Positions 1,306 to 22,385 of a DNA stretch of 23,128 nucleotides are shown here, piece by piece. The DNA is from a virus. The stretch spans positions 1 through 23,128 of IMG/VR virus record IMGVR_UViG_3300042878_000197; one strand, given 5' to 3'. Numbering within the stretch: position 1 is the stretch's first letter; each line of letters starts with the position of its first letter. The translations under genes and the position numbers were made by a program. The notes beneath the pieces were generated by a model. The model saw only the letters and a program-made list of their open reading frames with translations. It was not told where the DNA came from and searched no databases.

Positions 1306-1340
1306 AATCTTTGTCAATATCAAATCCAAAACGATAAATA
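1306..1340 (+). promoter_or_regulatory. Late-type promoter GATAAATA with upstream box, before the Dps gene
   Basis: GATAAATA at 1333-1340, preceded by AATCTTTGTCA at 1306-1316 with a 16-base gap, the same as at 616-650. The octamer context CGATAAATAGT is also shared. Predicted initiation near 1346 leaves a short leader containing TAGGA before ATG 1359. Confidence 0.6.
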
Positions 1341-1358: not shown

Positions 1359-1802
1359 ATGCTAGCAGAAACACTTAAAACACTTTTAGCCACAGTTTAC
1401 GCTTTGTCAATCAAGGCTCAGAACTTTCACTGGAATGTGGAAGGCCCAGACTTCCCTCAGTATCACGATTTCTTCGGTAGTTACTACGAAGAAGTATACG
1501 GCAACACTATTGATAAACTAGCAGAAATCATTCGCCAGCAAGATAGTTATACTCCTGGCAGTATTCTTCGCTATGCTGAACTAAGTCAGATTCAAGATCA
1601 GACCAAGATTCCTCGTGCAATGCTTATGATGGAAGAACTATATCACGATAATGCTATTATCCTAGATATGTATAAGCAAGCATTTCATGTTGCTGAGGAA
1701 GCTGATGAGCAAGGAATCTGTGACTTCATCGCAGGTCGCATTGACGCACACGCTAAACATCAATGGATGTTGAGAAGTATTCTTAAAACCGCAAGAGCAT
1801 AA
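1359..1802 (+). CDS. dps: Dps-like ferritin (DNA protection during starvation)
   Basis: A 147-residue four-helix ferritin-like protein. The signature HWNVEGPDFPQYHDFF gives the Dps ferroxidase ligands His24 and His36; Asp52 and Glu56 (TIDKLAEIIR) complete the inter-subunit site. The His-to-Asp spacing is 16 rather than the usual 15, because one residue is inserted before the Asp. Dps dodecamers oxidise Fe2+ with H2O2 and often bind DNA; this one has no Lys-rich N-terminal tail, so protection by iron sequestration seems more likely than strong DNA condensation. It has its own late-type promoter and ends 2 bases before the amidoligase-like gene, so the two are probably co-transcribed. A late phage Dps may protect packaged or replicating DNA from oxidative damage (inference). 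Confidence 0.85.
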   Translation: MLAETLKTLLATVYALSIKAQNFHWNVEGPDFPQYHDFFGSYYEEVYGNTIDKLAEIIRQQDSYTPGSILRYAELSQIQDQTKIPRAMLMMEELYHDNAIILDMYKQAFHVAEEADEQGICDFIAGRIDAHAKHQWMLRSILKTARA

Positions 1803-1804
1803 TC

Positions 1805-4759
1805 ATGAAGTCAACAGATATCTACAGTCTTTTTGAAGCACAACAAGAACTATTTGAAGTGGCAATGAACCCTTCAAATCTTAAAAAGCTTGCGGCTGCT
1901 ATTCCTGGCGTACAAGTTGGTATGGAATTTGAAATGGTCGTCCCTGACGCTCAAGGCGAAGACGAGGATGAATTTGAGTACGAGCCAGACTACGGTCGTG
2001 ATGAACGGGCTACCGACATTGATGATATTGTTCGTTTCTTTGGCGAAGAAGATGATTATGTAGGTCAGAACAATGGTGAGCGTCAACTAGAACGTCTGCG
2101 TGAGGAACTTAACGAAAAGTTCTATGAGTGGCAGAGCGAAAAGATTGATGAAGAATGGAATAGTGACGAAGGTAAACAATACTTTTTTAAATGGGTTAAA
2201 GACAATGTAAGCCCTGATGACGTTGCTGACCACGTTGATAAAGAAGAAGATTTATTCGGTAATAGAAATCCTGACGGATCTGATTACATGGAGTTCTCTG
2301 AGGCAGCGTGGGAAAACGGCTTTGATGACGATAATTATCAAAGAGCATATGATGAGTTCCGCGACGAAAGAATAGATGACGGTGATTTTGACGAAGAAAA
2401 ATTCTTAAGAGATATCGGCATTCGTGACATGTCTGATGTTGCAAATAATGTCCGCACAGATATTAGTTGGCCATATTATGAATCAAACTACGGCGGTGGT
2501 GGTGGCGACAACATTGAATCTATCGGTGAGAACTTTAGTGACGCTATCGGTAAAAAAGTTTACACGAGTACTAGCTATCACGGTGCAAAACGAGGGCCAG
2601 ACGCATATTCATTAGAACCAGATAGTAGTATTGATGCTAGCTCAGGAGAAGCCGGACTAGAATTCATCAGTCCTCCCATGAGTGTTGAAGAAATGTTTAG
2701 TGACTTGCAGAAGGTAAAAGAGTGGGCTGATGACAGAGGTTGCTATACTAACAGATCAACTGGTCTACATATCAATGTAAGTGTTCCCGACTACAGCCTT
2801 GACAAACTTGACTATGTTAAGTTAGCAGTATTGCTAGGTGACAAATATGTACTTGAACAATTTGGTCGTCTCAGTAATAACTACGCTAAATCAGCACTTG
2901 AAATTATCAAAGATAGAGCTAAAGACAATGAAGATGTCGATAAACTATTAAAGCAATTAAAGGGCAATGTAGAAACTATTGCAAGTAAAATTCTTCACAG
3001 TGGTAGAACAGATAAGTTCACTAGTATTAATACTAAGGATGGCTATGTAGAGTTTCGTAGTGCTGGTGGTGACTGGCTAGGTCAAAACTTTGATAAGATT
3101 GAAAATACTATATTGAGAAATATCGTAGCACTTGATGCTGCTGTGGATCCAAACAAGTATAAGAAAGAATATCAAAAAGCTTTATATAAACTATTAAAGC
3201 CAAAAAATGAAAGAAGCGATATGAGCTATTTTGCTAGATATATGTCTGGTGAAATTAATCGTAGTGACTACCTGCAGGTACTAGAGAAGACTAGAACAGA
3301 CCGTTTCAGAGAACAAGGTATTAGAATCCTTAAGCCAAATGAATTAGAAGAAAATGACTGGGCAATCACATATGATGATGGTAAGACACAAGAGACCATC
3401 TATATTGCAAACACTGATAAAGTTCCTACAGAGGAAGCTGCATTCAATGCTGCGAAGAAATTCAAGCCGCAATGGTTCAAGCCTAACACAATTGATTATA
3501 TCACTGTAAAGCCATACAAGTTTGATGAGGCATTGAAAGAACTTAAATTATATCGTGCTGATTATTCATATAAGCAGGTAAGTGTTGTTGCTAAAGATGA
3601 AGACCAGGCTAGAACATTTATCAAAATAATGGACCCTGAATTCTTTGCTGCAAATCCTGATGAAAAAATTGATATTACTGATGAGAACGAAGCATCACTA
3701 AGAAAAATTAAGGAAATGAATGACTGGGTACAGGGTAAACTTGAGAAGGGTAGAGCCTGGATAGCCCGTCCAAAGATTTGGCAAGTCAGAGGAGTTGCCA
3801 GTGAACCAGCTTTTGCGGGTCGTTATTACATTGCAGCAGAGGACCGAAATGACGCACTTGCTGTACTAAAACAATTGGATCCGGGTTTTATAATCCGTGA
3901 TATGTATGTGAATGATTCGGACCCTAGTGATAATACTTACGAAGCTTATAAAAGGGCTCAGGAAGATTTAATTCGTCAACAGAATGAAGAACGCACACAA
4001 AGACAAGCCGCACAAGACGAAACAATTGATATTTCAAATCTAAAGGGATATCGTGTAAGCAATAGCACTACCTATATGTATGTTGTTGCTGAGAACGGTG
4101 GAGAAGCAGCAGAGATTGCAAGTAAGATTGATCCAGAAAGATTCCCTAACATCGCTGATATTACAGTACAGGATGCAGGTTCAATCGGTGCTGACACATT
4201 GATTAGAGGAATGTATGCTAGACAGCAAAGCTTGTTGGACAATCAGAAACCAGCTGCACCCAAGTTTGAAGTCAATGATAGAGTTGAGGTTGTGTCTCAG
4301 TTCCCAAGTCTAATAGGTATGATAGGTACAGTACTACAAGTAAGTCCTAATTACGATTTTGTTAGTGTGCAGCTTGCTGGTAACAACGAAGCAAGTTCAT
4401 TCCCTACATCTGCACTTAAGAAGGCTGAGGAGTCTACTCAAGCTACTTATACAGTCACTAACACCGAAACAGGTCAAGCTCGCCGCTTTGCTGCTTCAAG
4501 TGAAGAAGATGCGATTAATATAGGAAGACGGGAATATCCTGCACTGTTTAGTACTAGTAATGTTACCGCTCAGCAATCTTCAGGAACTCCCGCAGCAAGC
4601 GACACTCGTATCAGTGATTTACGGTATTACAGAGTACAAAGACAAGATGCTAGCGGAAGAGCCGATTTAGCTGCATCTAGTCCAGAAGATGCAATTAACC
4701 GGGCCAGAGAACGAAATCCAACTTGGGGAAATAGTCCACTGACCGCAGAGCTACTTTAA
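1805..4759 (+). CDS. Amidoligase-like protein with C-terminal repeats; putative packaged protein
   Basis: A 984-residue, acidic protein. Residues 1-18 (MKSTDIYSLFEAQQELFE) look like a T4-style capsid-targeting peptide with an LFE cleavage site. Residues 39-440 carry the pattern of the amidoligase (glutamine-synthetase-like COOH-NH2 ligase) family: GMEFEM at 39-44, GLEFISPP at 284, TGLHINVSV at 319-327 and GYVEFRSAGGDW at 413, with a very acidic insertion (about 48-240) between the first two. These families join an amine to a carboxylate using ATP. The second half holds about five divergent copies of a 35-45 residue unit with the core YxV...AxxxxdA....dP, near residues 583, 659, 749, 882 and 942, and a KOW/SH3-like segment (FEVNDRVEVVSQ) at 821-868. 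The repeats may bind a partner or DNA. The substrate is unknown. Confidence 0.75.
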   Translation: MKSTDIYSLFEAQQELFEVAMNPSNLKKLAAAIPGVQVGMEFEMVVPDAQGEDEDEFEYEPDYGRDERATDIDDIVRFFGEEDDYVGQNNGERQLERLREELNEKFYEWQSEKIDEEWNSDEGKQYFFKWVKDNVSPDDVADHVDKEEDLFGNRNPDGSDYMEFSEAAWENGFDDDNYQRAYDEFRDERIDDGDFDEEKFLRDIGIRDMSDVANNVRTDISWPYYESNYGGGGGDNIESIGENFSDAIGKKVYTSTSYHGAKRGPDAYSLEPDSSIDASSGEAGLEFISPPMSVEEMFSDLQKVKEWADDRGCYTNRSTGLHINVSVPDYSLDKLDYVKLAVLLGDKYVLEQFGRLSNNYAKSALEIIKDRAKDNEDVDKLLKQLKGNVETIASKILHSGRTDKFTSINTKDGYVEFRSAGGDWLGQNFDKIENTILRNIVALDAAVDPNKYKKEYQKALYKLLKPKNERSDMSYFARYMSGEINRSDYLQVLEKTRTDRFREQGIRILKPNELEENDWAITYDDGKTQETIYIANTDKVPTEEAAFNAAKKFKPQWFKPNTIDYITVKPYKFDEALKELKLYRADYSYKQVSVVAKDEDQARTFIKIMDPEFFAANPDEKIDITDENEASLRKIKEMNDWVQGKLEKGRAWIARPKIWQVRGVASEPAFAGRYYIAAEDRNDALAVLKQLDPGFIIRDMYVNDSDPSDNTYEAYKRAQEDLIRQQNEERTQRQAAQDETIDISNLKGYRVSNSTTYMYVVAENGGEAAEIASKIDPERFPNIADITVQDAGSIGADTLIRGMYARQQSLLDNQKPAAPKFEVNDRVEVVSQFPSLIGMIGTVLQVSPNYDFVSVQLAGNNEASSFPTSALKKAEESTQATYTVTNTETGQARRFAASSEEDAINIGRREYPALFSTSNVTAQQSSGTPAASDTRISDLRYYRVQRQDASGRADLAASSPEDAINRARERNPTWGNSPLTAELL

Positions 4760-4761
4760 TA

Positions 4762-5259
4762 GTGCGCGCCAAAGAGTTCATTGACGAATACAAAGCCGAC
4801 AATGATATAAACGGCAAGGGACTCGGTACAACCGGTTATAATTCAAATGTAGACTATCGTGGACTCAGAGTATTGATGAAGCCTAGTGTTTTCTTATCAC
4901 TTGCTGCTCATTTATCTGAACCCAGCAGTGTAGATTATATTGTACAGCATATGAAAGACGGTGGAGCATTGGGTTCTCCTTTCTTAATCGTAGACATTCC
5001 AGAAAAATACTTTGAAGGGGACTTCACTGGATTAAACTTCGCTAAGGTAGTGGGACATGAGGGCCGCAATCGTATGCTAGCCATTCAGAAGCTTGAGGGT
5101 GATGAACCATGTGAAGTTCATATCTTTGGCTACGGTGAGCTTAGAGCTAGGCACTTCACTCCGGAGATAATTGAACAGCTTGAAACTGCCATGAGAAACC
5201 AAGATGGTAAGCTAGTATTCGGTCGTCTTCCAGGATTATTATTTGAGCCGATTGGATAA
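4762..5259 (+). CDS. Tagged phage protein with GHEGRNR motif (ParB-like?)
   Basis: A 165-residue protein starting at GTG 4762, two bases after the previous stop. The GTG start is supported because it yields MRAKEFIDE, nearly identical to the tag of the metallopeptidase gene and of T4 internal proteins. The middle has FLIVDIPEKYF, then VVGHEGRNRMLAIQKL and CEVHIFGYGE. A G-H-[DE]-G-R-x-R-x-x-A motif after a hydrophobic strand resembles the core of ParB-like nuclease/CTPase folds and of uncharacterised domains in large phage polyproteins; I regard ParB-like as a guess. It is probably co-expressed with the amidoligase-like gene and, if the tag is real, processed and delivered with the DNA. Confidence 0.75.
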   Translation: MRAKEFIDEYKADNDINGKGLGTTGYNSNVDYRGLRVLMKPSVFLSLAAHLSEPSSVDYIVQHMKDGGALGSPFLIVDIPEKYFEGDFTGLNFAKVVGHEGRNRMLAIQKLEGDEPCEVHIFGYGELRARHFTPEIIEQLETAMRNQDGKLVFGRLPGLLFEPIG

Positions 5260-5310: not shown

Positions 5311-5318
5311 GATAAATA
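5311..5318 (+). promoter_or_regulatory. Late-type promoter GATAAATA upstream of the 5342 gene
   Basis: An exact GATAAATA octamer, 17 bases downstream of the sigma70 -10 box at 5289. The two promoters in tandem suggest early and late expression. Predicted late initiation near 5324 leaves a leader with AAAGGG ahead of ATG 5342. Confidence 0.6.
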
Positions 5319-5341: not shown

Positions 5342-5680
5342 ATGAAAATTACCGAGCTACTCGCAGAATCACGCTACGACGATTGGGACAAGGAAGAAGA
5401 AGAACTTCCTGGCGATCCCGATCAAGATAAGGTTCCTAACCTCATCATTCAGTTCAAGAAGTCTTTGGATGTAGACGGTCGCTATCCTATCGTATTTCGT
5501 GACGGACGTAAGGTAAACATCCCTACTCAGATTATGGTTGACTTCCTCAACAAGTATGATGAACTAAAGCCAATGGATCGTGAAACTATGCAAAATCTTG
5601 CTGCACAGTCTGTTGATAAGTTTAAGGAAGTTCTTGCTACTTTCAAGGGCGAAAAGCCTGAAAGAAGCATTTACAAGTAA
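5342..5680 (+). CDS. Small acidic tagged protein, putative packaged protein
   Basis: A 112-residue protein. I chose ATG 5342, not the in-frame GTG at 5309: the GTG would lie before both the late octamer and the AAAGGG ribosome site, while ATG 5342 gives the tag MKITELLAE with Glu at position 9, as in the other tagged proteins. After the tag comes an acidic linker (DDWDKEEEE...GDPDQDK), then a strand-rich core (NLIIQFKKSLDV, YPIVFRDGRKVNIP) and a helical end rich in Lys and Phe. I do not recognise a family. The tag and late promoter suggest a small protein packaged in the head; the sigma70 promoter suggests it is also made early. No catalytic motif is visible. Confidence 0.75.
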   Translation: MKITELLAESRYDDWDKEEEELPGDPDQDKVPNLIIQFKKSLDVDGRYPIVFRDGRKVNIPTQIMVDFLNKYDELKPMDRETMQNLAAQSVDKFKEVLATFKGEKPERSIYK

Positions 5681-6052: not shown

Positions 6053-6357
6053 TGGAAGATATTGCCACCCTTATTAGTGAATACGGTTTCCCTATCATCG
6101 CCGCAGGCGGCATGGGATACTTTGTATTCTATGTTTGGCAATGGGCAACTGAGGAAGTTGATCCAGTGCTGAGTGAAGCTAGCGGGACACTAATAGCATT
6201 GATTGACCGTATTCGTATGCTTGACAATGATTTAATTCGGTTAAAGCAAAAAGTAGATACTGTTTTGCATTTACGTGGTAAATCTATTGAACATGAAAGA
6301 GTACAAGCAGAGAATGAAATAAACAAAATTACTATTGAAGCAAAAAAGGATAAATGA
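6052..6357 (+). CDS. One-helix membrane protein with coiled coil, paralogue 2
   Basis: A 101-residue protein overlapping the previous stop as TAATG. The layout matches the preceding protein: MEDIATLISEYGFPIIAAGG then MGYFVFYVWQW as the membrane helix, then a coiled coil (IRMLDNDLIRLKQKVDTVL) and a charged Glu/Lys-rich tail. Two related one-helix proteins with cytoplasmic or periplasmic coiled coils could form a hetero-oligomer. It ends in an ATGATG overlap with csgF, so equal or coupled expression is likely. Function is unknown; a holin/antiholin-type pair is the main alternative. Confidence 0.75.
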   Translation: MEDIATLISEYGFPIIAAGGMGYFVFYVWQWATEEVDPVLSEASGTLIALIDRIRMLDNDLIRLKQKVDTVLHLRGKSIEHERVQAENEINKITIEAKKDK

Positions 6358-6797
6358 TGAAAAAAGCTATCATATTATCACTACTCCTATTAAGTACTCC
6401 GGTGCAGGCTACCGAACTGGTGTTTCAATTTAAAAATCCATCATTCTCTGGAATCAACACCGGAGCGCAATGGTTGACTATTGAGAACCAAGAAACTCTA
6501 CGTAAGAAAGCTATACAGGATAAGATAGAAGCTGAACTCAAAGCAAAAGCATTGGAAGAAAAGAACTCAATTCTAAATCGCTTTTTGAACAATCTGCAAT
6601 CTCGTATATATTCGCAATTGGCTCAGCAGTTGACTAATAATCTGTTTGGAGAAATGGGCGGAGAATCAGGAGAGTTTACGCTTGAAGGCAATGTCATTAA
6701 GTATGAAAAGACTGACACTGAGATAAAGTTAGTAATCGTTGATGCGCAGGGTAATCAGACAGAAATCATAGTGCCTACTAGCGGATTTAAATGGTAA
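6354..6797 (+). CDS. csgF: CsgF-like curli assembly protein
   Basis: A 147-residue exported protein. The Sec signal peptide MMKKAIILSLLLLSTPVQA precedes TELVFQFKNPSFSG, which matches the mature N-terminus of E. coli CsgF (FQFRNPNFGG), the segment that inserts into the CsgG barrel. A central helical part (about residues 40-100, rich in Lys/Glu/Ala, then IYSQLAQQLTNNLFGE) and a C-terminal strand segment (IKLVIVDAQG..TEIIVP) also follow the CsgF plan. CsgF couples fibre nucleation to the outer-membrane pore. ATG codons at 6354 and 6357 both fit; the gene overlaps its neighbours on both sides. A CsgF directly before CsgG makes the assignment strong. Confidence 0.9.
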   Translation: MMKKAIILSLLLLSTPVQATELVFQFKNPSFSGINTGAQWLTIENQETLRKKAIQDKIEAELKAKALEEKNSILNRFLNNLQSRIYSQLAQQLTNNLFGEMGGESGEFTLEGNVIKYEKTDTEIKLVIVDAQGNQTEIIVPTSGFKW

Positions 6798-7585
6798 TGA
6801 ACTGGAAACTTCTCATATTGCTGCCGCTTCTAAGTGGCTGCGTAGCGTCTGGACCCGCCGGTCTTCAATTGAAGGAAGATCCGGTAAAGATGACTACACA
6901 GGTCAAAGAGTTATATAACCTTCCTGCTCCAGAAAGACAAGCTGTTGTAGCAGTATATGACTTTCCTGATTTGACAGGTCAGCGCAAAGATAAAGATGGT
7001 ATAGCAAGTATATCAACTGCTGTTACACAAGGCGGCACTCCTCTTCTAATATCCGCATTGCGGGATGCTGGTGGCGGAACATGGTTTAGAGTCGTAGAAC
7101 GCAATAGGGTCGATGACCTTGCGAAAGAACGTCAAATCGTTCGTACAACTCGTGAAGAATATGTTGGTGAAGGTGCAAATAAACTTGAGCCAATGCTGTT
7201 TGCTGGTCTTATCGTTCAAGGTGGTATCATCGGTTATGATACTAACATACAAACAGGTGGAGTAGGGGCAAGATATCTCGGCATAGGTGGAACAACTAGC
7301 TACCGAAAAGATCAAGTGGTTGTAGCGTTGCGCGGAGTCAATACTAATACCGGCGAAATAATTCTCAACGTGCAAGTTTCAAAAACTGTATTATCTGTTG
7401 GTAGAGACCTTTCTCTTTTCAAATTCGTAGATGTTGGTACAAAACTAGTTGAAGCAGAAATCGGTATGACCGAGAATGAAGCAAATACAATGGCAGTTAA
7501 AATGGCCACAGAAGAAGCAGTGCTACAACTGATTAAACAAGGCGTAGAGAAAGGGTACTTTAAATACAAGGAAGTAAAACAATGA
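6797..7585 (+). CDS. csgG: CsgG-like outer-membrane curli secretion lipoprotein
   Basis: A 262-residue lipoprotein from ATG 6797 (TAATG overlap; an in-frame ATG at 6791 would add two residues). The signal and lipobox are LLSGC with Cys15. Strong CsgG marks: LPAPERQAVVAVYDFPDLTG, STAVTQGG, FRVVERNRVDDL, ERQIVR, GGIIGYDTNIQTGGVGARYLGIG, VNTNTGEIILNVQVSKT and FKFVD. E. coli CsgG forms a nonameric 36-strand pore that exports curlins. At the constriction, E. coli Tyr51, Asn55 and Phe56 align here with Asp, Ser and Ile in a loop one residue longer, so the eyelet chemistry differs. The C-terminus ends shortly after the last helix, shorter than in E. coli. No CsgE adaptor gene is visible nearby. Confidence 0.95.
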   Translation: MNWKLLILLPLLSGCVASGPAGLQLKEDPVKMTTQVKELYNLPAPERQAVVAVYDFPDLTGQRKDKDGIASISTAVTQGGTPLLISALRDAGGGTWFRVVERNRVDDLAKERQIVRTTREEYVGEGANKLEPMLFAGLIVQGGIIGYDTNIQTGGVGARYLGIGGTTSYRKDQVVVALRGVNTNTGEIILNVQVSKTVLSVGRDLSLFKFVDVGTKLVEAEIGMTENEANTMAVKMATEEAVLQLIKQGVEKGYFKYKEVKQ

Positions 7586-8277
7586 AATTTAAATCAGTGA
7601 TGCTCGTTATGGCTATGTTATCTAGCTCTTTGGCTTTTGCACAGTCAACTACTAACTCAATTTTTATTGAGCAGGTAGGCGATAACAGTAATATTACTAT
7701 TGTTCAGAAGGGACAGAATAATAGAATTGGTTCTGAACAGAATCGGTTAATGCTTGACGGTAACGGACAAATAATTAACACAACACAAGAAGGTAACAAT
7801 AACCTTATTCAGGGTTCTATTGTTCAAGCTGACAATGTTTCGACTGATACTACAGTTACTGGTGATAGCAACACTATAACTTATGACCGTGGCGATGCTG
7901 CTAGTGTGGCTGCATCATCTGAGACAGTTGTAGTTACTGGTAGCACAAACAATCTTACATTCAATCAAGGTACTGCGGCTTCGGCAACTGGTGCTACTCA
8001 AACTATTGCTATAACTGGCGATACCAACACTCTTACATCTACTATAAACGCAGATGATGTAGTGAACACTAAGACAATCGCCGGTGATGGAAATACGATT
8101 ACTACTGTACAGAACGGGACTGCTGGAAAGAATATTGAACTTCTTCTTACTGGCAATACTAATACTGTAACAGTAAACCAACAGAGTACAACTAATGTTG
8201 ACACCCTTAAGATTAATAGCACAGGTAGCAACGGCATTATTACTGTTAATCAGTGTAACGCCGGCGGCCCTTGCTAA
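7582..8277 (+). CDS. Curlin-repeat amyloid fibre subunit (CsgA/CsgB-like)
   Basis: A 231-residue secreted protein starting in an ATGA overlap with csgG. The Sec signal peptide is MKFKSVMLVMAMLSSSLAFA. The first mature part, SIFIEQVGDNSNITIVQKG, is curlin-like (I.Q.G..N...I.Q.G). Then come six units opening with [TA]G[DSN]xN and a beta strand, near residues 93, 119, 145, 167, 190 and 214, a spacing of 22-26 as in curlins. The later units have Thr/Asn/Ala in place of the usual Gln/Asn ladders. The end, NQCNAGGPC, has two Cys, unusual for curlins. It is the expected cargo of the CsgG/CsgF pore. The last 83 bases also encode the signal peptide of the next protein in another frame. Confidence 0.85.
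   Translation: MKFKSVMLVMAMLSSSLAFAQSTTNSIFIEQVGDNSNITIVQKGQNNRIGSEQNRLMLDGNGQIINTTQEGNNNLIQGSIVQADNVSTDTTVTGDSNTITYDRGDAASVAASSETVVVTGSTNNLTFNQGTAASATGATQTIAITGDTNTLTSTINADDVVNTKTIAGDGNTITTVQNGTAGKNIELLLTGNTNTVTVNQQSTTNVDTLKINSTGSNGIITVNQCNAGGPC
7858..8244 (+). repeat. Curlin-type protein repeats within the amyloid gene
   Basis: Six imperfect coding repeats start at 7858, 7936, 8014, 8080, 8149 and 8221, at intervals of 66-78 bases. Each encodes [TA]G[DSN]xN followed by a short Thr-rich strand. The DNA copies have diverged (ACTGGTGATAGCAAC, ACTGGCGATACCAAC, ACTGGCAATACTAAT), so selection appears to act on the protein pattern. Confidence 0.75.
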
Positions 8278-9283
8278 TATAGGAAAGGTTACGCAAAACC
8301 GAGGTGTAAGTGAGGTCGTAAAGAATTCATCAAGAGTTCCTACACGACCTCAGTTACCTATTGCCAAATTGGATAGGGTGCAGACCGGTAACGGTAGAGT
8401 TGAAATCACATTCATAGATGATTCTACTGTTAAGGTCACTGAACACTCTAAGCTCGTGATTGACGATTTTGTATACAGTGGCAAGCCATCCACTTCAAGA
8501 ATGGCTCTCAAGTTCGCTGCTGGGACTGCTAGATTCGCTACAGGCCAGTCCGGCAAGATGAACAAGGGCAACATCAATCTCAGAACACCCACAGCTACGA
8601 TAGCCGTTCGCGGTACTGACTTTGCAGCAACAGTAGATGACTTTGGTAAAAGCTTGATTGTCTTGCTTCCAGAACCTGACGGGTCAGTAGGTGAAATTAC
8701 AGTAGCCAATGCTGCTGGATTCGTCATTCTTAATAGAGCATTTCAGGCTACTATAGTGTCTACGATGGACAGTAGACCTTCTCGTCCAGTTATACTGAAT
8801 CTTACTCTCAACCAAATTGACAATATGCTAATCGTATCTCCGGCAGAAGAAGTTAAATCACAAGAAGAAATTGCTGAAACTAAAGCTAACCTACTAGACC
8901 TATCAGAACTTGATATTGATTATCTTGCTAAAGATGACCTGCAGGAAAATCAACTAGCCAGTTCTGAACTTGATATCAATACGATTAACTCAGATTTCTT
9001 AGCAGAAGATTTTCTTGATAATGCTGACGGAAGTGATTGCGTAACAAGAGACAATACTAAGCTATGCGGAACTACATTTGGTCTTAATAACACTACTCAG
9101 ATTACTACTATTTTGACCGGAGATTCTCTGCGTCTTGTTAGAACACTAAGTACAACAGTGGATATTGTTGTAAAGAAAGACTCAAATAAAACACTATTCA
9201 TAGATAGCAATGGCAAATCATTTCTAATTGAAATAAACGAGCCAGCCGGAGGAACTATAATCAATGTTAAACAAGGCGAGTAA
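8195..9283 (+). CDS. Periplasmic FecR-domain protein
   Basis: A 362-residue protein from ATG 8195, overlapping the curlin gene by 83 bases. This start is required: it supplies the Sec signal peptide (MLTPLRLIAQVATALLLLI, then SVTPAALA), and no later ATG lies before the FecR domain. The FecR core runs from about residue 40 to 175: VEITFIDDSTVKVTEHSKLVI, then LKFAAGTARFATG, then LRTPTATIAVRGTDFAATVD. FecR folds are periplasmic sensor or ligand-binding domains, and stand-alone FecR proteins often neighbour CHASE2-cyclase genes in proteobacteria. The C-terminal part is acidic, with a repeated SSELDI-type segment (SELDIDYLAKDDL, SSELDINTINSDFLAEDFL) and a Cys pair (DCVTRDNTKLCG). No further membrane helix is seen. 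It probably feeds the CHASE2 cyclase that follows. Confidence 0.88.
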   Translation: MLTPLRLIAQVATALLLLISVTPAALANIGKVTQNRGVSEVVKNSSRVPTRPQLPIAKLDRVQTGNGRVEITFIDDSTVKVTEHSKLVIDDFVYSGKPSTSRMALKFAAGTARFATGQSGKMNKGNINLRTPTATIAVRGTDFAATVDDFGKSLIVLLPEPDGSVGEITVANAAGFVILNRAFQATIVSTMDSRPSRPVILNLTLNQIDNMLIVSPAEEVKSQEEIAETKANLLDLSELDIDYLAKDDLQENQLASSELDINTINSDFLAEDFLDNADGSDCVTRDNTKLCGTTFGLNNTTQITTILTGDSLRLVRTLSTTVDIVVKKDSNKTLFIDSNGKSFLIEINEPAGGTIINVKQGE

Positions 9284-11315
9284 AGTATTACTTTCACCGT
9301 GGCTAGCAGTAGCTACAATACTTTTACTGTTATCAGTGAAGTTGATGAATCCGTTCCTAGTTGATAGTATGAAATTAAAGTACTATGATTATCTGATGCT
9401 TGGGGAACCAATTAAGTCAGAACAGATTGTAGTTGCAAATATAGGGGAGAAAGCAATTGAAAAATATGGACAATGGCCGTTCCCTAGGGAAGTCCACGCT
9501 AAGATTATTAGCGATCTTTATGGGGCAAACGCTGGTATCGTTGGTACTACTATTCTTATGCCTGAACCTGATAGGATGGGTACTGATGGAAGTCTTGCTG
9601 ATACCTTAAACAAATATCCGGTTGTTCTCAGTCAAACACTCACTGATGAGTGTGTCAAGGATACTCGTCCGACTCGCCGCACAGGTATTGCTGTAGTCGG
9701 TGACGGACAACCCACTGATTTTCTTCCGAACTATCCATGTGTTCTTGATAACATTCCAATATTTCAAGAGTCTGCCGCAGGCGTCGGCATAACATCTTCT
9801 CTTCCTGAGACTGACGGGGTAACTCGCCGAGTGCCTCTATTAGGGATTTCAAATGGTGAATACTATCCTGCGTTTTCGTTAGAACTGCTAAGAGTTGCTG
9901 CGGGAGATCCTTCATATCAAGCGAAGATAAATCAGACGGGTGTTGAAGCATTGCGTGTTCCTCAGTTTGGTACAATTAATACAGATGAATATGGTCGTGT
10001 GTTTATAAATCCAAATTATCAGTTTGATTCTTTAGAAATTGGCGAAGCAATTCCTGATCTGATAGGTAAGATAGTGATTCTAGGCGTAACTGCCGAAGGA
10101 GTTGCAAACCCTGTAGCGACTCCGGGTGGTGCCCAAATGCCTCACACGGTTCAGGCCAGTCTTCTTGAGACATTGATAAAGGGAGATTCAGTGTCGATTC
10201 CGAATTGGGTTCAATTGGCTGATCTATTGGCATTTGCTATCCTTTCATTATTGATTATCGTTCTGTCAAGAGTTAGATATTCAATAGTTTGGATCGGAAT
10301 ATTATTAGCTGGCTACGTGTATGCTCCGATATATCTATTTACGCATAATAAGATATTGTTTGATATTTCTTTCAATATATTAGCAGCGGTAATAATTTAC
10401 TTACACATCTATACTGTTAAATTCATTAGTGAATACTTACAGAAACAACAGATTAAGAAACAATTTGGTACCTATCTAAGTCCGGACTTAGTTGCTCAAC
10501 TACAGCGCCAGCCAGAACTACTACAACTCGGTGGCACTGAACAAGAACTATCAATTATGTTTACTGATGTTCGCGGATTCACTACAATCAGTGAACATTA
10601 TGGTAAAGATGTTCAAGGTCTAACTAAGATTATGAACCGTTATATGACTGCCATGACTAAGGCAATTTTAGAGAACAAGGGAACTCTAGATAAGTATATA
10701 GGAGATGCTCAAATGGCATTTTGGAATGCTCCGGTAGACAATCCGCAGCACGCCAAAGATGCAGTTAGAACAGCATTTACAATGATGAAGGCACTTGAGG
10801 AATTCAATGATGAAGTTACGAAAGAAGGCATTCCAGCTTTTGGAATGGGCCTCGGTATTAATACTGATACTGTGGTTGTCGGTAATATGGGTAGTGATCA
10901 GCGTTTCGACTATACTTGTCTTGGTGATGGGGTCAATCTTGCATCTAGGCTCGAAGGTCAAAGCAAGCCTTATGGCGTTAAGATCGTCATCGGACCTAAA
11001 ACTGCGAAGTATGTTTTGGACCAGTATCAAATAGCTGAACTTGATTTGCTTGCGGTTAAAGGTAAAACTGAACCTGCTAGAATCTTTACTGTGTTCTCCT
11101 TCCATGATCCATTAGGTGAAACACAACACATGAAATTCTTAGAACTATATCGTCAAGGACACTGGGAAGTTGCAGCAAACTACGCAAGCGAATTAAAGCA
11201 AGCATGGCGCGGAGAAATGAACCAGTATTACGATATGATGATAGAACGAATTAACGAGTACAAAGAGAATCCTCCCAGAGAATGGGATGGAGTATATAGG
11301 GCAACTTCAAAATAG
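9264..11315 (+). CDS. CHASE2-domain class III adenylate cyclase
   Basis: A 683-residue inner-membrane enzyme overlapping the FecR gene by 20 bases. Order: one N-terminal helix (about 8-27), a periplasmic CHASE2 sensor (about 30-310, with QIVVANIGEKAIEKYGQWPFPR and GKIVILGVTAEG), three membrane helices (about 318-400), then a class III cyclase (about 425-600). Metal-binding Asp435 (MFTDVRGFT) and Asp481 (KYIGDAQMAFW) are present, as are Asn558 and Arg562 (GVNLASRLEG). The substrate Lys477 is kept and the partner Asp is replaced by Thr551, the pattern of class IIIb adenylate cyclases. A 70-residue helical tail follows. It should make cAMP from ATP in response to a periplasmic signal, probably with FecR. 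All catalytic residues appear intact, so it is likely active. Confidence 0.92.
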   Translation: MLNKASKVLLSPWLAVATILLLLSVKLMNPFLVDSMKLKYYDYLMLGEPIKSEQIVVANIGEKAIEKYGQWPFPREVHAKIISDLYGANAGIVGTTILMPEPDRMGTDGSLADTLNKYPVVLSQTLTDECVKDTRPTRRTGIAVVGDGQPTDFLPNYPCVLDNIPIFQESAAGVGITSSLPETDGVTRRVPLLGISNGEYYPAFSLELLRVAAGDPSYQAKINQTGVEALRVPQFGTINTDEYGRVFINPNYQFDSLEIGEAIPDLIGKIVILGVTAEGVANPVATPGGAQMPHTVQASLLETLIKGDSVSIPNWVQLADLLAFAILSLLIIVLSRVRYSIVWIGILLAGYVYAPIYLFTHNKILFDISFNILAAVIIYLHIYTVKFISEYLQKQQIKKQFGTYLSPDLVAQLQRQPELLQLGGTEQELSIMFTDVRGFTTISEHYGKDVQGLTKIMNRYMTAMTKAILENKGTLDKYIGDAQMAFWNAPVDNPQHAKDAVRTAFTMMKALEEFNDEVTKEGIPAFGMGLGINTDTVVVGNMGSDQRFDYTCLGDGVNLASRLEGQSKPYGVKIVIGPKTAKYVLDQYQIAELDLLAVKGKTEPARIFTVFSFHDPLGETQHMKFLELYRQGHWEVAANYASELKQAWRGEMNQYYDMMIERINEYKENPPREWDGVYRATSK

Positions 11316-11358
11316 GTTACCCAATATTTTTGACACACACAGTTAAATGTAGTATACA
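11314..11358 (+). promoter_or_regulatory. Sigma70-type promoter of the outer-membrane protein gene
   Basis: TTGACA at 11330-11335, 17-base spacer, TATACA at 11353-11358. Two bases upstream of the -35 lies AGGTTACCCAATAT (11314-11327), nearly identical to the block before the -35 of the 13280 gene, so a shared upstream element is likely. Confidence 0.75.
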
Positions 11359-11363
11359 TAGTA

Positions 11364-11381
11364 CTGACATAAAAATGTCAG
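11364..11381 (+). promoter_or_regulatory. 5'-end stem-loop in the outer-membrane protein mRNA
   Basis: CTGACAT (11364-11370), loop AAAA, ATGTCAG (11375-11381): a perfect 7 bp hairpin located where transcription from the 11353 -10 box should begin. Hairpins at the very 5' end stabilise mRNAs such as E. coli ompA. The ribosome site AAAGGA at 11395-11400 lies outside it. Confidence 0.55.
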
Positions 11382-11410
11382 ACTTTCAAACTTAAAAGGA
11401 AAAATAAAGT

Positions 11411-11881
11411 ATGAAGAAGTTAATCGCACTCGCAGCACTTGCAACTGCTGCTTTCGCATCGCCTGCAATGGCATCTGGTTTCGCCGGTCCTCGTATTGAG
11501 GTAACAGCCGGAGCTGATGATGTCAAGAATGGCGTTGATCCAACTGATGTAACTTATGGCGGCGTCCTTGGTTATGACCTTCAGTTCGGTAAGGTAGTTG
11601 TAGGCGTCGAAGCGACTGCTGCCAATGTCTTTGATCGTGCCGATCTTGGTGCAGGTGCTCGTCTTGGTTATACCTTGAACAAGCATGTTCTTGCTTATGG
11701 TCGTGTTGGTTATACCAATCTTGATCTTGGCGCCCGTTCTGCTGATGGTCTTGCTGTCGGCGGCGGTCTTGAGGCTCATCTTGCAGGCCCAGTCTTTGTT
11801 AAGGCTGAGTATCGCTACACTGACTTCGAAGGTAATCTTGGTCGTCATGGTGGACTCGTAGGCTTCGGTCTTCGTTTCTAA
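11411..11881 (+). CDS. Outer-membrane beta-barrel protein (opacity/Omp25-like)
   Basis: A 156-residue exported barrel. The signal peptide MKKLIALAALATAAFASPAMA is of a type common in sphingomonads and other alphaproteobacteria. The mature part alternates strands such as VTYGGVLGYDLQFG, VVVGVEATA, GARLGYTLN, LAYGRVGYTN, VKAEYRYTDF and ends GLVGFGLRF, with the C-terminal Phe that BAM recognises. Eight strands would fit the OMP_b-brl/porin-like small barrel family. It has a near-consensus sigma70 promoter, an mRNA 5' hairpin and a good ribosome site, so strong early expression is expected. Its GC content and codon use look higher and more biased than in flanking genes, suggesting acquisition from a host. 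A role in altering the infected cell surface or blocking superinfection is inference. Confidence 0.88.
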   Translation: MKKLIALAALATAAFASPAMASGFAGPRIEVTAGADDVKNGVDPTDVTYGGVLGYDLQFGKVVVGVEATAANVFDRADLGAGARLGYTLNKHVLAYGRVGYTNLDLGARSADGLAVGGGLEAHLAGPVFVKAEYRYTDFEGNLGRHGGLVGFGLRF

Positions 11882-11954: not shown

Positions 11955-12503
11955 ATGAAAATAGGATTAAGTAAATCTATAATTCACCATGCGGGTTTCG
12001 TATATGATGCGATAGATCAAGGTTGGTATAATACCCTAAAAGGACATAACTTGTTCTTTATTCCTAATACATTAAATCAAGACTTTAACGTCATGGCTAA
12101 CGATCTAGATTCATTAATTTTGACTGGTGGAGAATATGCTGAACAAAGAAGTGAAGTTGAGCAGGTGTTAGTTAACAAAATGACAGAACATAATAAACCA
12201 GTTGTTGGTATAGCTGAAAGCGCATTTCACATAGCTGGATTATTAGGCGGAGAACTTGACTCTATTGATAAGCATTATACAGTAGATCATCCTATCTTTT
12301 ATCATAGAGAAGTATTAGAAGTTAATAGTTACCATAATAAATGTATAAAAAAGTTGCCAGAATCTACAAACGTGCTTTGTTTAGATTATTTAGGGAACAT
12401 AGAAGCATTTACTAGTAATAATCTAGCAGGCATAGTATGGAATCCTGAAAAGATGGATAAACCTTGGATTCCCCCTGAGATAGCATATATGCTTCGTATT
12501 TGA
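11955..12503 (+). CDS. Glutamine-amidotransferase-like (peptidase C26) protein without catalytic residues
   Basis: A 182-residue protein with the class I glutamine amidotransferase / PuuD-like fold: LDSLILTGG near 50, PVVGIAESAFHIAGLLGGEL at 82-101, VNSYHNK near 124, then GNIEAF and GIVWNPEKM at 159-167. In active members the nucleophile is Cys in GIC[RK]G.Q and the His is in WHPE. Here these positions are Ala87 (GIAES) and Asn163 (WNPE), so two of the three catalytic residues are missing. It is shorter than PuuD (about 250 residues). It could be a binding-only pseudoenzyme, or use another residue such as Ser89. Amidoligases elsewhere are often encoded near PuuD-like peptidases, so a link to the 1805 gene is possible. 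Confidence 0.72.
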   Translation: MKIGLSKSIIHHAGFVYDAIDQGWYNTLKGHNLFFIPNTLNQDFNVMANDLDSLILTGGEYAEQRSEVEQVLVNKMTEHNKPVVGIAESAFHIAGLLGGELDSIDKHYTVDHPIFYHREVLEVNSYHNKCIKKLPESTNVLCLDYLGNIEAFTSNNLAGIVWNPEKMDKPWIPPEIAYMLRI

Positions 12504-12514: not shown

Positions 12515-13216
12515 ATGAGAGCCAATGAATTCATCGCCGAGCGCAAGCGCAAAAGAAAGAAGTCCAAAAGGGCCTATGGCGGATATTTCTATCCGGGCTT
12601 TGGCTACGGCGACAACAGCTCCGGCGAAGGCGGAGATGGCGGTGGCGGCGAAAGTATGTATGAAGACGCAGTAATGGAACTTGCTAACGAATTACCAACC
12701 TTAGCAAAGCACGACTATACCACTATTGACCAATTAATGCGTAAGGTAGCAGCAAAACATAAAATTACTGCTACTGCATTGCAGAATCTCTTTAAAACTA
12801 AATATCGCAGAACTCCTGATCATTGGATTCATAATAAGTTAGACGAAACTGATACAGTTGATAGCAATGTAGCTGCCGAAGTAGAAAAGTTTGTAGAATG
12901 GACTGCTAAAAAGTTAAATCTACAAAAGGTTCCTACTGTAGAACTATCAATGGATACTGAAGAAGCACAAGGCAATCATCATACCGGCGGCCATATCATA
13001 GGCGATGACAGTATTTGGGTATATGCAAAGAATCGTAATCTAGTTGACATTCTTAGAACAGTATTCCACGAGTTAGTACATGTTCGTCAACACGAGATAG
13101 GTATGATTAAGCCTGGTGACAGTTATCCTGGGTCACCCATTGAATCAATGGCAGATATGCTAGCCGGCAAATACATTAAGATTTACGGCGAAAAAAACAA
13201 CCACATCTTTCAATAA
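12515..13216 (+). CDS. Zinc metallopeptidase-like protein with capsid-targeting-type tag
   Basis: A 233-residue protein. ATG 12515 is preferred over an in-frame ATT upstream at 12500 because it yields MRANEFIAE, matching the T4 internal-protein tag (EFIAE). After the predicted cut come a very basic stretch (RKRKRKKSKR), an aromatic/Gly-rich linker (YGGYFYPGFGYG, then GEGGDGGGGES), a helical domain with TPDHWIHNKL near 105, and a C-terminal zincin: FHELVHVRQHEIG with His185, Glu186 and His189, and ESMADMLAG with Glu210 as the likely third ligand. Spacing and motifs suggest a gluzincin-type peptidase. The basic stretch could contact packaged DNA. With tag and late promoter, the likely picture is an enzyme packaged in the head and delivered into the cell (inference). 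Confidence 0.82.
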   Translation: MRANEFIAERKRKRKKSKRAYGGYFYPGFGYGDNSSGEGGDGGGGESMYEDAVMELANELPTLAKHDYTTIDQLMRKVAAKHKITATALQNLFKTKYRRTPDHWIHNKLDETDTVDSNVAAEVEKFVEWTAKKLNLQKVPTVELSMDTEEAQGNHHTGGHIIGDDSIWVYAKNRNLVDILRTVFHELVHVRQHEIGMIKPGDSYPGSPIESMADMLAGKYIKIYGEKNNHIFQ

Positions 13217-17059: not shown

Positions 17060-17436
17060 TGATAAAGACTGTCAATGGTTCTGGTAGATATATAATGGTC
17101 AATGGGGGCTACCCAGCGACCACATATATCAATACTAGTTCAGGATACATGAATGTCGGAGATGTTAGATATAACACTCAAATGCAGCGACTTGAAGTAT
17201 ATGATGGTCAAATGTGGTTAGAAATCAATACTAGTCATGCTAGTATTGGTTTGACTCCTGATGCTGAAATGGCACTTGATTGGGCTACTAAGAAGCGCAA
17301 TGAAGAAATGGTACTTGAAGCAAAAGCTAAGGATAATCCAGCTATTGCAGATTTGCTTAATCAACGAAAAACAATTGATGACCAAATCAAAATGATTGAA
17401 ATCTTAACGAAAGATAACAAAGTTGGAACAAATTAA
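17059..17436 (+). CDS. Small structural-looking phage protein
   Basis: A 125-residue protein coupled to the clamp gene by a TAATG overlap. The N-terminal half is Gly/Asn/Tyr-rich with strands: YIMVNGGYPATTYINTSSGY, then NVGDVRYNTQMQRLEVYDG and QMWLEI. The YNT....LEVYDG..W segment is a type I associate with tail-fibre and other virion proteins. The C-terminal half is a helical coiled-coil-like region (MALDWATKKRNEEMVLEAKA, then LLNQRKTIDDQIKMIEIL). It may be a virion or chaperone-like accessory. I know no named family; its place between clamp and dpdA says little about function. Confidence 0.8.
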   Translation: MIKTVNGSGRYIMVNGGYPATTYINTSSGYMNVGDVRYNTQMQRLEVYDGQMWLEINTSHASIGLTPDAEMALDWATKKRNEEMVLEAKAKDNPAIADLLNQRKTIDDQIKMIEILTKDNKVGTN

Positions 17437-18979
17437 CCTTTCAAACAGTCACAATCCCGAATGGGCATTGTTTCTGCCCGCAATCTCGTCTTTCTTCATT
17501 GCTGGCTTAGGCAAGCAACGTGAAGGTGAACAGTATTTTGACCCGGCGAGAATCCCTGCGGCATTCAACGGAGACGTTGAGTGTTTGAATTTCTTCAACA
17601 GCAAGCAAGGCTTATATACGTATAAGTGGGGCTTGTATTCTGCTGGTCACGCAAATCTTGATATTAATAAGGATGACAATAATGAATCAATTATCCGCAA
17701 GAGAGAAGAAGGCACTTTTCTTCTAGGAGACTCAGGAGGATTCCAGATTCTTAAATGTCAGTGGCCAGCAGATTGGAAGGATCCCAACTGCCCTCGTGCG
17801 ATGAAGAAGCGTCAACAAGTTCTTACTTGGATGGATGAGTACATGGACTATGGCATGTGTCTTGATATTCCATCACAGTCATTGACAACGTATCATATCC
17901 TTGACAAGAAGACAGGCAAATCAGCACATGGTATCAGCACAATTGAAGAAGCAATCACTGCTACGCATATCAACAACGAATACTTTGTTGCCAATCGTGA
18001 TGGTCGTTGCAAGTTTCTAAACGTTCTACAGGGTCGTAATCATGGTCAGTCAGATGCATGGTACGAAGAAATGAAGAAGTATTGTGATACGACCATTTAC
18101 GGTGACAAGGCATTCAACGGCTGGGCATTCGGTGGTCAAAACAAGATTGACATTCACTTGATGTTGAAGCGTATTGTAGGAATCATTCACGATGGTTTCC
18201 TAGAAGAAGGCAAGCAAGACTTGATTCACTGTCTCGGTACTTCAATCATGGAGTATGCAGTTCTCTTTACTGATATTCAGCGGGCAGTTCGCAAGTATCA
18301 TAATCCTAAACTACAGATTACGTTTGATTGTGCTTCTCCGTTCTTTGCTGCTGCTAAGGGTCTTGCATATAATAATAACACATTTGAGCATGGTACTAAA
18401 TGGTCTTATTCAATGGAAAAGACTGCTGAAAACAAGAAGTATGCAACAGACAACCGCAAGCTTAGCGACGGTGTCCTTGCTGATAAGATTCACAAGATGT
18501 TCACTGATAGTCCTGTAACTGACAAGTTGTTGATGAAAGATATCTGCTATCGCGGTCAAGGATTCTTAGGTCAGCACGGCAAAGAAACAAAGACTTCATG
18601 GGACACGCTTTCTTATACCTTGATTCAGGCACACAATGTCTATCAACATATGACTGCGGTTCAAGAAGCCAATCGTCGGTATGAGAATGGAATCAAGCCT
18701 AAGATGGTTATGGATCCTCTCGGTAATCTCAATTTTTCCGATATCGTTGATAAGATTTTCTCACTCAAGGATCGTGAAAAGAGTTTGGCTATGATTGACC
18801 AATATGATAAGTTTTGGCAGCAGTTTAAAGCTGGTCAAGGATTCAGTGGTAAGAAGACTATTAATGCTCATACTATGTTTGATCAACTATTTGCAGTTGA
18901 AGATAGTGATCCTGAAATTGATGAGGTTATGGAAGACACTGATGCTTTGATGGCAGAAGTTCTTGACCAAAACAGTTGA
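17423..18979 (+). CDS. dpdA: DpdA-like tRNA-guanine-transglycosylase homologue (7-deazaguanine DNA modification)
   Basis: A 518-residue protein. The start is probably TTG 17423: a stop lies just upstream in frame, no ATG occurs for more than 120 codons, and the TTG overlaps the previous gene by 14 bases. TGT-superfamily marks are GDSGGFQIL with Asp103, the general acid/base position, CLDIPSQS, LNVLQGRNHGQSDAWYEEM, GWAFGGQNKIDI and TFDCASPFFAAA with Asp302 as the nucleophile candidate. Phage and bacterial DpdA proteins exchange guanine in DNA for a 7-deazaguanine such as preQ0. The Cys-rich zinc site of tRNA TGT is not obvious. GTP cyclohydrolase I and a QueD-like gene downstream support the pathway. 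The modification should protect phage DNA from restriction. Confidence 0.85.
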   Translation: MEQINLSNSHNPEWALFLPAISSFFIAGLGKQREGEQYFDPARIPAAFNGDVECLNFFNSKQGLYTYKWGLYSAGHANLDINKDDNNESIIRKREEGTFLLGDSGGFQILKCQWPADWKDPNCPRAMKKRQQVLTWMDEYMDYGMCLDIPSQSLTTYHILDKKTGKSAHGISTIEEAITATHINNEYFVANRDGRCKFLNVLQGRNHGQSDAWYEEMKKYCDTTIYGDKAFNGWAFGGQNKIDIHLMLKRIVGIIHDGFLEEGKQDLIHCLGTSIMEYAVLFTDIQRAVRKYHNPKLQITFDCASPFFAAAKGLAYNNNTFEHGTKWSYSMEKTAENKKYATDNRKLSDGVLADKIHKMFTDSPVTDKLLMKDICYRGQGFLGQHGKETKTSWDTLSYTLIQAHNVYQHMTAVQEANRRYENGIKPKMVMDPLGNLNFSDIVDKIFSLKDREKSLAMIDQYDKFWQQFKAGQGFSGKKTINAHTMFDQLFAVEDSDPEIDEVMEDTDALMAEVLDQNS

Positions 18980-21704: not shown

Positions 21705-22385
21705 ATGTCGTATAACAAAACTAAAACTGATCCAGAGTTGGGTCAAAAGATTCACGAACACCTAGTCAAGATGGGTGTTGAAACTCCCACAACAGAATAT
21801 TCACTAGACCGCAAAGAAAAGATTGAGGTAATTGAAGCGCATTTTGCTGGCATCATGCGTACACTAGGTCTTGACTTAGAAGATGACAGCCTTATGGATA
21901 CGCCGAAGCGTGTTGCAAAGATGTATGTCAATGAAATCTTTTGGGGTCTTGACTATGATGCATTCCCTAAGTGTACAACTGTTGCAAACAAAATGAACTA
22001 CGATGAAATGGTTGTAGAACGCAATGTCAATGTTCAATCTAATTGCGAACATCACTTCGTAATCATTGATGGGCTTGCCACTGTTGCGTATGTCCCGAAT
22101 GAAAAGGTACTTGGTCTTTCAAAGATTAATCGTATTGTTGAATACTTTGCGAAGCGTCCACAGATTCAAGAGCGTTTGACTGAACAGGTCTTCCATGCTC
22201 TTTGCTATATCCTTGAAACTGACAACGTTGCAGTAATGATTGACGCACAGCATTATTGCGTTAAGAGTCGCGGTGTTGAAGACACTGGTTCGTCAACTGT
22301 AACTACTAAACTCGGTGGTGGATTCAAGACTGATCCTGCTGCAAGAGCAGAGTTTCTTAGCATTGCCCGCATGGGTAAGTGCTGA
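21705..22385 (+). CDS. folE: GTP cyclohydrolase I
   Basis: A 226-residue GTP cyclohydrolase I (family about 190-240). Signatures are DTPKRVAKMY, SNCEHHFVIIDG with zinc ligand Cys114 and His116/His117, YVPNEKVLGLSKINRIVEYF, KRPQIQERLTEQ, and AQHYCVKSRGV with His183 and Cys185, the second zinc Cys. All expected catalytic and zinc residues are seen. The enzyme converts GTP to dihydroneopterin triphosphate, the first step toward folate or, with QueD, QueE and QueC, preQ0. With dpdA and a QueD-like gene upstream, the preQ0/DNA-modification branch is the likely use. It has a strong ribosome site and its own late-type octamer. The next gene overlaps as TGATG. Confidence 0.95.
   Translation: MSYNKTKTDPELGQKIHEHLVKMGVETPTTEYSLDRKEKIEVIEAHFAGIMRTLGLDLEDDSLMDTPKRVAKMYVNEIFWGLDYDAFPKCTTVANKMNYDEMVVERNVNVQSNCEHHFVIIDGLATVAYVPNEKVLGLSKINRIVEYFAKRPQIQERLTEQVFHALCYILETDNVAVMIDAQHYCVKSRGVEDTGSSTVTTKLGGGFKTDPAARAEFLSIARMGKC

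Follow-up and report, generated by a model that had tools for sequence, protein, structure and literature searches.

The DNA analysed here is a window of 23,128 nt that corresponds to an IMG/VR virus record, a fragment of about 23 kb, in which an ORF on the plus strand at 1805-4759 encodes a protein of 984 aa that gave amidoligase matches in Pfam and PHROG and was modelled with AF2; the boundaries of the gene in the first-pass annotation proved exact. The gene is abutted by that of a Dps/ferritin-like protein (1359-1802, plus strand; PF00210, E 2.3e-21), homologues of which were present in 16 of the examined IMG/VR amidoligase loci. This ferritin-amidoligase operon is preceded by the octamer GATAAATA at 1333-1340 (plus strand), which we take to resemble the T4 late promoter and which occurs in five copies in the window, all on the plus strand, compared with 1.69 expected, a count reached by 1 of 100 shuffles. 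The DNA polymerase encoded in the window is closest to those of the jumbo phages Phosso and Atu_ph07.

With the core alignment as query, 80 loci were retrieved from IMG/VR. One IMG/VR locus (L001) carries an 89% identical copy in the same gene order, with the N-terminus of the protein lost at the contig end, while the relatives as a whole range from 480 to 2560 aa and are highly variable in architecture. Scanning of species-level genomes of bacteria and archaea, 84,980 in all, gave a single match of 73 residues on a seemingly chimeric contig, which led to the conclusion that, within the sensitivity of the scan, the phage sub-family is essentially confined to viruses, and a cellular origin of the family was rejected since the scan had found just this end of a phage-like gene. 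The contig in question, JALQVJ010000342 from a Burkholderiaceae MAG (L127:1-222), opens with the fragment of a phage amidoligase and runs on into bacterial sequence, a junction that is probably an assembly chimera.

Further genes of the window include a curli-like cluster at 6354-11881. It comprises CsgF, CsgG, a repeat protein similar to CsgA, FecR and a CHASE2-adenylate/guanylate cyclase, after which comes an outer-membrane-like protein. Homologues of CsgG are known in phages HTVC008M and Melnitz, and the FecR and cyclase genes beside curli genes in a phage are striking. GTP cyclohydrolase I is encoded at 21705-22385, and for the protein without Pfam match at 17423-18979 our guess is a tRNA-guanine-transglycosylase-like base-exchange enzyme; the two jointly could serve deazaguanine DNA modification. 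A peptidase C26-like protein (gamma-glutamyl hydrolase/amidotransferase) lies at 11955-12503. Whereas a C26-like gene stands beside the amidoligase in 12 of the 14 cellular loci, no counterpart of the window ORF was found in any other phage locus examined, and the C26 amidotransferase was consequently rejected as a conserved phage partner.

Profile comparison of the window protein with PF12224 (Amidoligase_2) gave an E-value of 2.5e-4 and 21.4 bits, the curated cut-off being 22, and comparison with phrog_2443 ('amidoligase enzyme') an E-value of 3.9e-5. Among its 56 aligned relatives, 45 matched PF12224 at E <= 0.01 (best 8.7e-15), and one relative covers nearly the full model (E 1e-16). An hhalign comparison of the core profile with 14 cellular amidoligases, drawn from a phylum-wide bacterial genome sample, reached 92.7% probability (E 4e-7). 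All 56 relatives share residues G39, E41, E43, E271, D273, S275, E286, H322, K339, R355, R418 and G421 without exception, and across the same set the motifs GxExE, ExDxS, the E of GxEfiS, GxHxN and EFR are invariant or nearly so. In the window protein, all on the plus strand, these correspond to GMEFEM, the first metal-site strand motif (residues 39-44, 1919-1936), EPDSS and GLEFISPP (residues 271-291, 2615-2677), STGLHINVS with H322 (residues 318-326, 2756-2782), R355 (2867-2869) and YVEFRSAGG with R418 and G421 (residues 414-422, 3044-3070). The AF2 model, built with 56 sequences (mean pLDDT 81.4, pTM 0.50), places most of the invariant residues on strands 37-47, 267-272, 282-288, 321-326 and 415-419, a pattern that fits a GS-type sheet. 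The outcome that, by the first-pass annotation, would refute its reading, a prediction lacking the GS-like beta-sheet site, did not occur, in that five predicted strands bear conserved residues in keeping with such a site.

Judged from family membership in PF12224, the motif residues and the profile match to cellular enzymes, the amidoligase reading holds, and the core is assigned to the Amidoligase_2 family, the window protein alone being borderline and its support lying at the level of the family. In an hhalign comparison with single-sequence YbdK (GCS2), only the GxExE strand was aligned, and not significantly, so that a link to glutamine synthetase proper has to be taken from the literature; the amidoligases have reportedly been surveyed by Iyer et al. 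in 2009. A PDB sequence search with the family profile returned nothing meaningful (best E 0.011).

Although the core motifs GxExE, ExDxS, GxEfiSpp and GxHxN are shared with Amidoligase_2, the viral sub-family differs by its acidic insertion of 190 residues, its repeats at the C-terminus and its propeptide of the capsid type. The insertion comes after the first motif strand (residues 48-240; 1946-2524, plus strand) and is as long and acidic as had been described, with 32.6% D/E and a pI of 4.05; AF2 models it as a largely confident helical domain, the helices mostly at high pLDDT, and not as low-complexity sequence. In the C-terminal half, for which five diverged repeats had been proposed, AF2 yielded six strand-strand-helix(-strand) units and therefore one extra: units 1-4 at about residues 519-570, 581-626, 657-702 and 747-792 (3359-4180, plus strand), and units 5 and 6 at about 881-915 and 942-976 (residues 881-984; 4445-4756, plus strand), the latter two modelled at lower confidence. 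A leave-out profile trained solely on other family members and compared with 200 shuffles recovered units 5 and 6 with 15.0 and 21.9 bits (shuffle maximum 4.8) and failed to recover units 1-4, whose statistical independence as repeats is unsupported. The proposed KOW-like segment likewise stands in part: a small beta-rich stretch is modelled at residues 826-873 (4280-4423, plus strand), but it has no Pfam match to back an assignment as KOW, and phrog_4943 (unknown function) touches it with an E-value of 0.025. No Pfam family accounts for the repeat units. Repeats and beta-rich segment would most likely position the enzyme on a host target or on nucleic acid.

Ahead of the enzyme domain, the family alignment and the AF2 model indicate a predicted capsid targeting propeptide comprising residues 1-18 (MKSTDIYSLFEAQQELFE; 1805-1858, plus strand) with putative sites LFE11 and LFE18. 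In T4, gp21 cleaves after L/I-X-E, and in the internal protein IPIII residues 1-10 target the head, positions 4 and 7 being important for the targeting itself and positions 8 and 10 for cleavage (PMC9026906). An (L/I)xE site directly before the enzyme domain was found in 56/56 relatives, which fall into 37 clusters at 70% core identity; alignment column 16 is L in 53 and I in 3, column 18 is E in 56/56, and the middle column 17 is free, with at least 8 different residues. The family consensus MR-x-x-x-F upstream of this (L/I)-x-E resembles the T4 capsid targeting sequence (IPIII, MKTYQEFIAE; IPI, MKTFKEF...ITE), and free members begin with MRAxxF, as in MRALEFLNE/IAMNP and MRARNFIAEAELFE/INMSP, where the slash marks the predicted cut. 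At the same place the window protein reads MKSTDIYSLFEAQQELFE/VAMNP, and its AF2 model has pLDDT < 50 for residues 1-19 and about 85 thereafter, the low-confidence stretch ending at the predicted cut. Its own start, MKSTDIYSLFE, fails the strict form of the tag pattern, and its tag support is that of the family. Diverged amidoligase paralogues stand in tandem in two loci (L008:2590-7443 and L013:5311-10580) and carry the same tag.

Applied to the amidoligase loci, the strict pattern matched 94/713 distinct ORF starts compared with 2/3875 internal Met, corresponding to about 250 times the background. The pattern had been devised after the amidoligase tags were seen, which makes the amidoligases among the 94 partly circular; most of the 94 are other proteins. 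Genome-wide on one 360-kb contig the tag occurred at 7/428 ORF starts and 1/1692 internal Met, and comparison of the two ORF-start frequencies indicates that tags are more frequent on genes in the vicinity of the amidoligase. The gp21 family was found in 7/12 contigs of relatives, the window record being just a 23-kb fragment, and Gp23 in 7/7 of the gp21-bearing contigs, whose capsid proteins, as seen by eye, have an N-terminal LxE before a conserved AGTTTAGN-like stretch in 7/7. Packaging, as predicted in the first-pass annotation, is thus supported at the sequence level by the site in all relatives, the tags on neighbouring genes and the gp21 and gp23 homologues. In the 462-kb uncultured phage LR756500 (L004:3832-10537), several unrelated ORFs begin with MKYIKEYEEF or MKYIQTYDDFLNE, perhaps another version of the tag.

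Besides the amidoligase, three ORFs of the window carry the tag, all on the plus strand. The next ORF (4762-5259), of unknown function, starts with the strict tag MRAKEFIDE/Y and has homologues in 8 amidoligase loci. A small ORF (5342-5680) begins with MKITELLAE/S, its true start being inferred from the octamer at 5311, and an HExxH metalloprotease-like protein (12515-13216) with MRANEFIAE/R, which is the stand-alone version of a module fused in relatives and has homologues, free or fused, in 33 amidoligase loci. As the octamers at 5311 and 12502 fall within the extensions of the longest ORFs, the shorter starts are supported, which puts the tag at the very N-terminus. Over all loci, the octamer was not clearly commoner before tagged than before other ORFs (16/93 vs 79/590). 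Tagged neighbours in amidoligase loci include a NUDIX plus ADP-ribosyltransferase protein, a GNAT-like protein and the metalloprotease-like protein.

Ten distinct relatives, of 1229-2560 aa, are fusions with a nucleotidyltransferase-like domain; most of them also have the metalloprotease-like (HExxH) module, and a cytidine deaminase or further modules occur in some. Giant fusions of 1652-2560 aa (L030:3532-11214, L043:3496-9261, L073:1906-8313 and L039:3061-8019) combine nucleotidyltransferase, SGNH-like, HExxH protease, amidoligase, cytidine deaminase and other modules. At the border of the amidoligase LxE was present in 10/10 fusions, and at other module borders [LIVM]xE lay within 3 residues of the cut of the free homologue in 9/13, with 1.24 expected, these 13 borders being not fully independent because related polyproteins are among them. 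The placement of the sites suggests, from sequence, that the capsid protease may double as a polyprotein processor.

Comparison with known systems revealed both agreement and differences. T4 IPI-IPIII and Alt share the short N-terminal propeptide ending in (L/I)xE and cut by gp21 (PMC9026906), and Alt, a packaged enzyme acting on the host, may be taken by analogy as the working model of a packaged amidoligase (PMC9026906). The T4 IPs are injected anti-defence proteins that block restriction enzymes, which indicates that injected cargo pays (PMC12373910). In contrast to the amidoligase phages, none of the T4 internal proteins is an amidoligase, the cargo set of T4 is far smaller, and its tag, MKTYQEFIAE, is usually one residue longer than the MRAxEFIxE of the phage loci. 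The polyvalent proteins known from phages and conjugative elements (PMC5512222) are similar in that many unrelated enzyme domains, with zincin-like proteases and Pol-beta nucleotidyltransferases among them, are joined in one polypeptide that is predicted to be injected. Their release has been proposed to occur via embedded metallopeptidases, whereas the amidoligase fusions have gp21-like sites at their module borders, and the words amidoligase and glutamine synthetase are absent from that paper (PMC5512222). Several unrelated enzyme domains, the mark of a polyvalent protein, are found in the ten fused relatives, while the window protein has one that is recognised. Agrobacterium phage Atu_ph07 encodes a related protein, gp196 (AUZ94978), with a 30% identical core and an LxE (LTE) before the domain; its gene is two genes away from that of the portal and, going by its number, falls within the virion-protein cluster CDS 170-215 (PMC6102473). 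Unlike the window protein, gp196 has 500 aa and lacks the C-terminal repeats, and strict tags were not found in the 50-kb head region of Atu_ph07.

From the gene, its family, the invariant residues and the strands that bear them, the protease site, the tag system and the co-tagged neighbours, all of which the computation demonstrated, we infer that the window protein is probably an internal head protein in the style of T4, with an enzyme part that would be delivered to form amide bonds on a host molecule early in infection. The amidoligase would be made late, from the operon with the Dps-like gene, and its first ~18 residues would dock it into the prohead core. A gp21-type prohead protease would then cut behind LFE18 and perhaps behind LFE11 as well, so that a mature enzyme of ~110 kDa would remain in the head and be ejected with the phage DNA. 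At the start of infection, the ATP- and metal-dependent enzyme would presumably couple an amine with a carboxylate on some target in the host, for which the first-pass annotation had suggested a host protein or the cell wall. Points that weigh against this reading are the atypical tag of the window protein, the lack of strict tags in the head region of Atu_ph07, the insignificant alignment with YbdK and the absence of a clear preference of the octamer for tagged ORFs.

The tag and the protease site argue just for entry into the prohead, and a packaged enzyme might also work there, for instance by introducing cross-links or other modifications into capsid or core proteins as the head matures, instead of being directed at the host. 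Amide cross-links occur in the capsids of other phages such as HK97. We nevertheless consider such a role unlikely, as the tagged or fused ADP-ribosyltransferase, GNAT-like, NUDIX, nucleotidyltransferase and protease domains resemble host-directed cargo like T4 Alt (PMC9026906), and the very variable architecture of the relatives, from one of 480 aa to the largest fusion, is unlike that of a core assembly enzyme. Still less probable in our view is an intracellular late enzyme that is not packaged at all, with an N-terminus that merely resembles a tag and an LxE that is a structural part of the domain, even though the block L-x-E-[IV]-x-M-S-P is conserved as a whole and could be structural, and the tag of the window protein is atypical. 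Against this reading, L/I and E are fixed on either side of a freely varying middle residue, the site is retained in free and fused contexts alike, the tag is common to many mostly unrelated ORF starts (94/713), and residues 1-19 are modelled at very low confidence. A catalytically retired amidoligase fold serving as scaffold or internal structural protein, for which the score slightly under the Pfam cut-off and the large insertions and extensions might speak, is very improbable, since invariance of the motif residues in 56/56 relatives would be unexpected without selection for activity.

Delivery of a host-directed amidoligase from the head is thus the reading that we prefer. More tentatively, and with somewhat more doubt than conviction, we propose that these T4-superfamily jumbo phages possess a tag-based cargo system in which many enzymes, some of them joined into polyproteins of up to 2560 aa, enter the prohead, are diced there at module borders by the protease of capsid maturation and are injected as a mixture of separate effectors. 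The components are of kinds that are already known, namely amidoligases, T4 capsid targeting and polyvalent injected proteins (PMC5512222). A literature search, with most subscription journals outside it, retrieved no paper linking an amidoligase with capsid targeting, nor any description of gp21-type sites between modules.

If the proposal is true, one member of the injected mixture would be an amidoligase that puts a peptide-type modification on some host molecule. Annotations of phage amidoligases go back years but have said neither where nor when the enzymes act; the capsid tag would locate this one to the virion and have it act within the first minutes of an infection, which makes the idea testable. 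By the same tag, ORFs that are so far anonymous in environmental jumbo phages could be read as a list of candidates for injected effectors.
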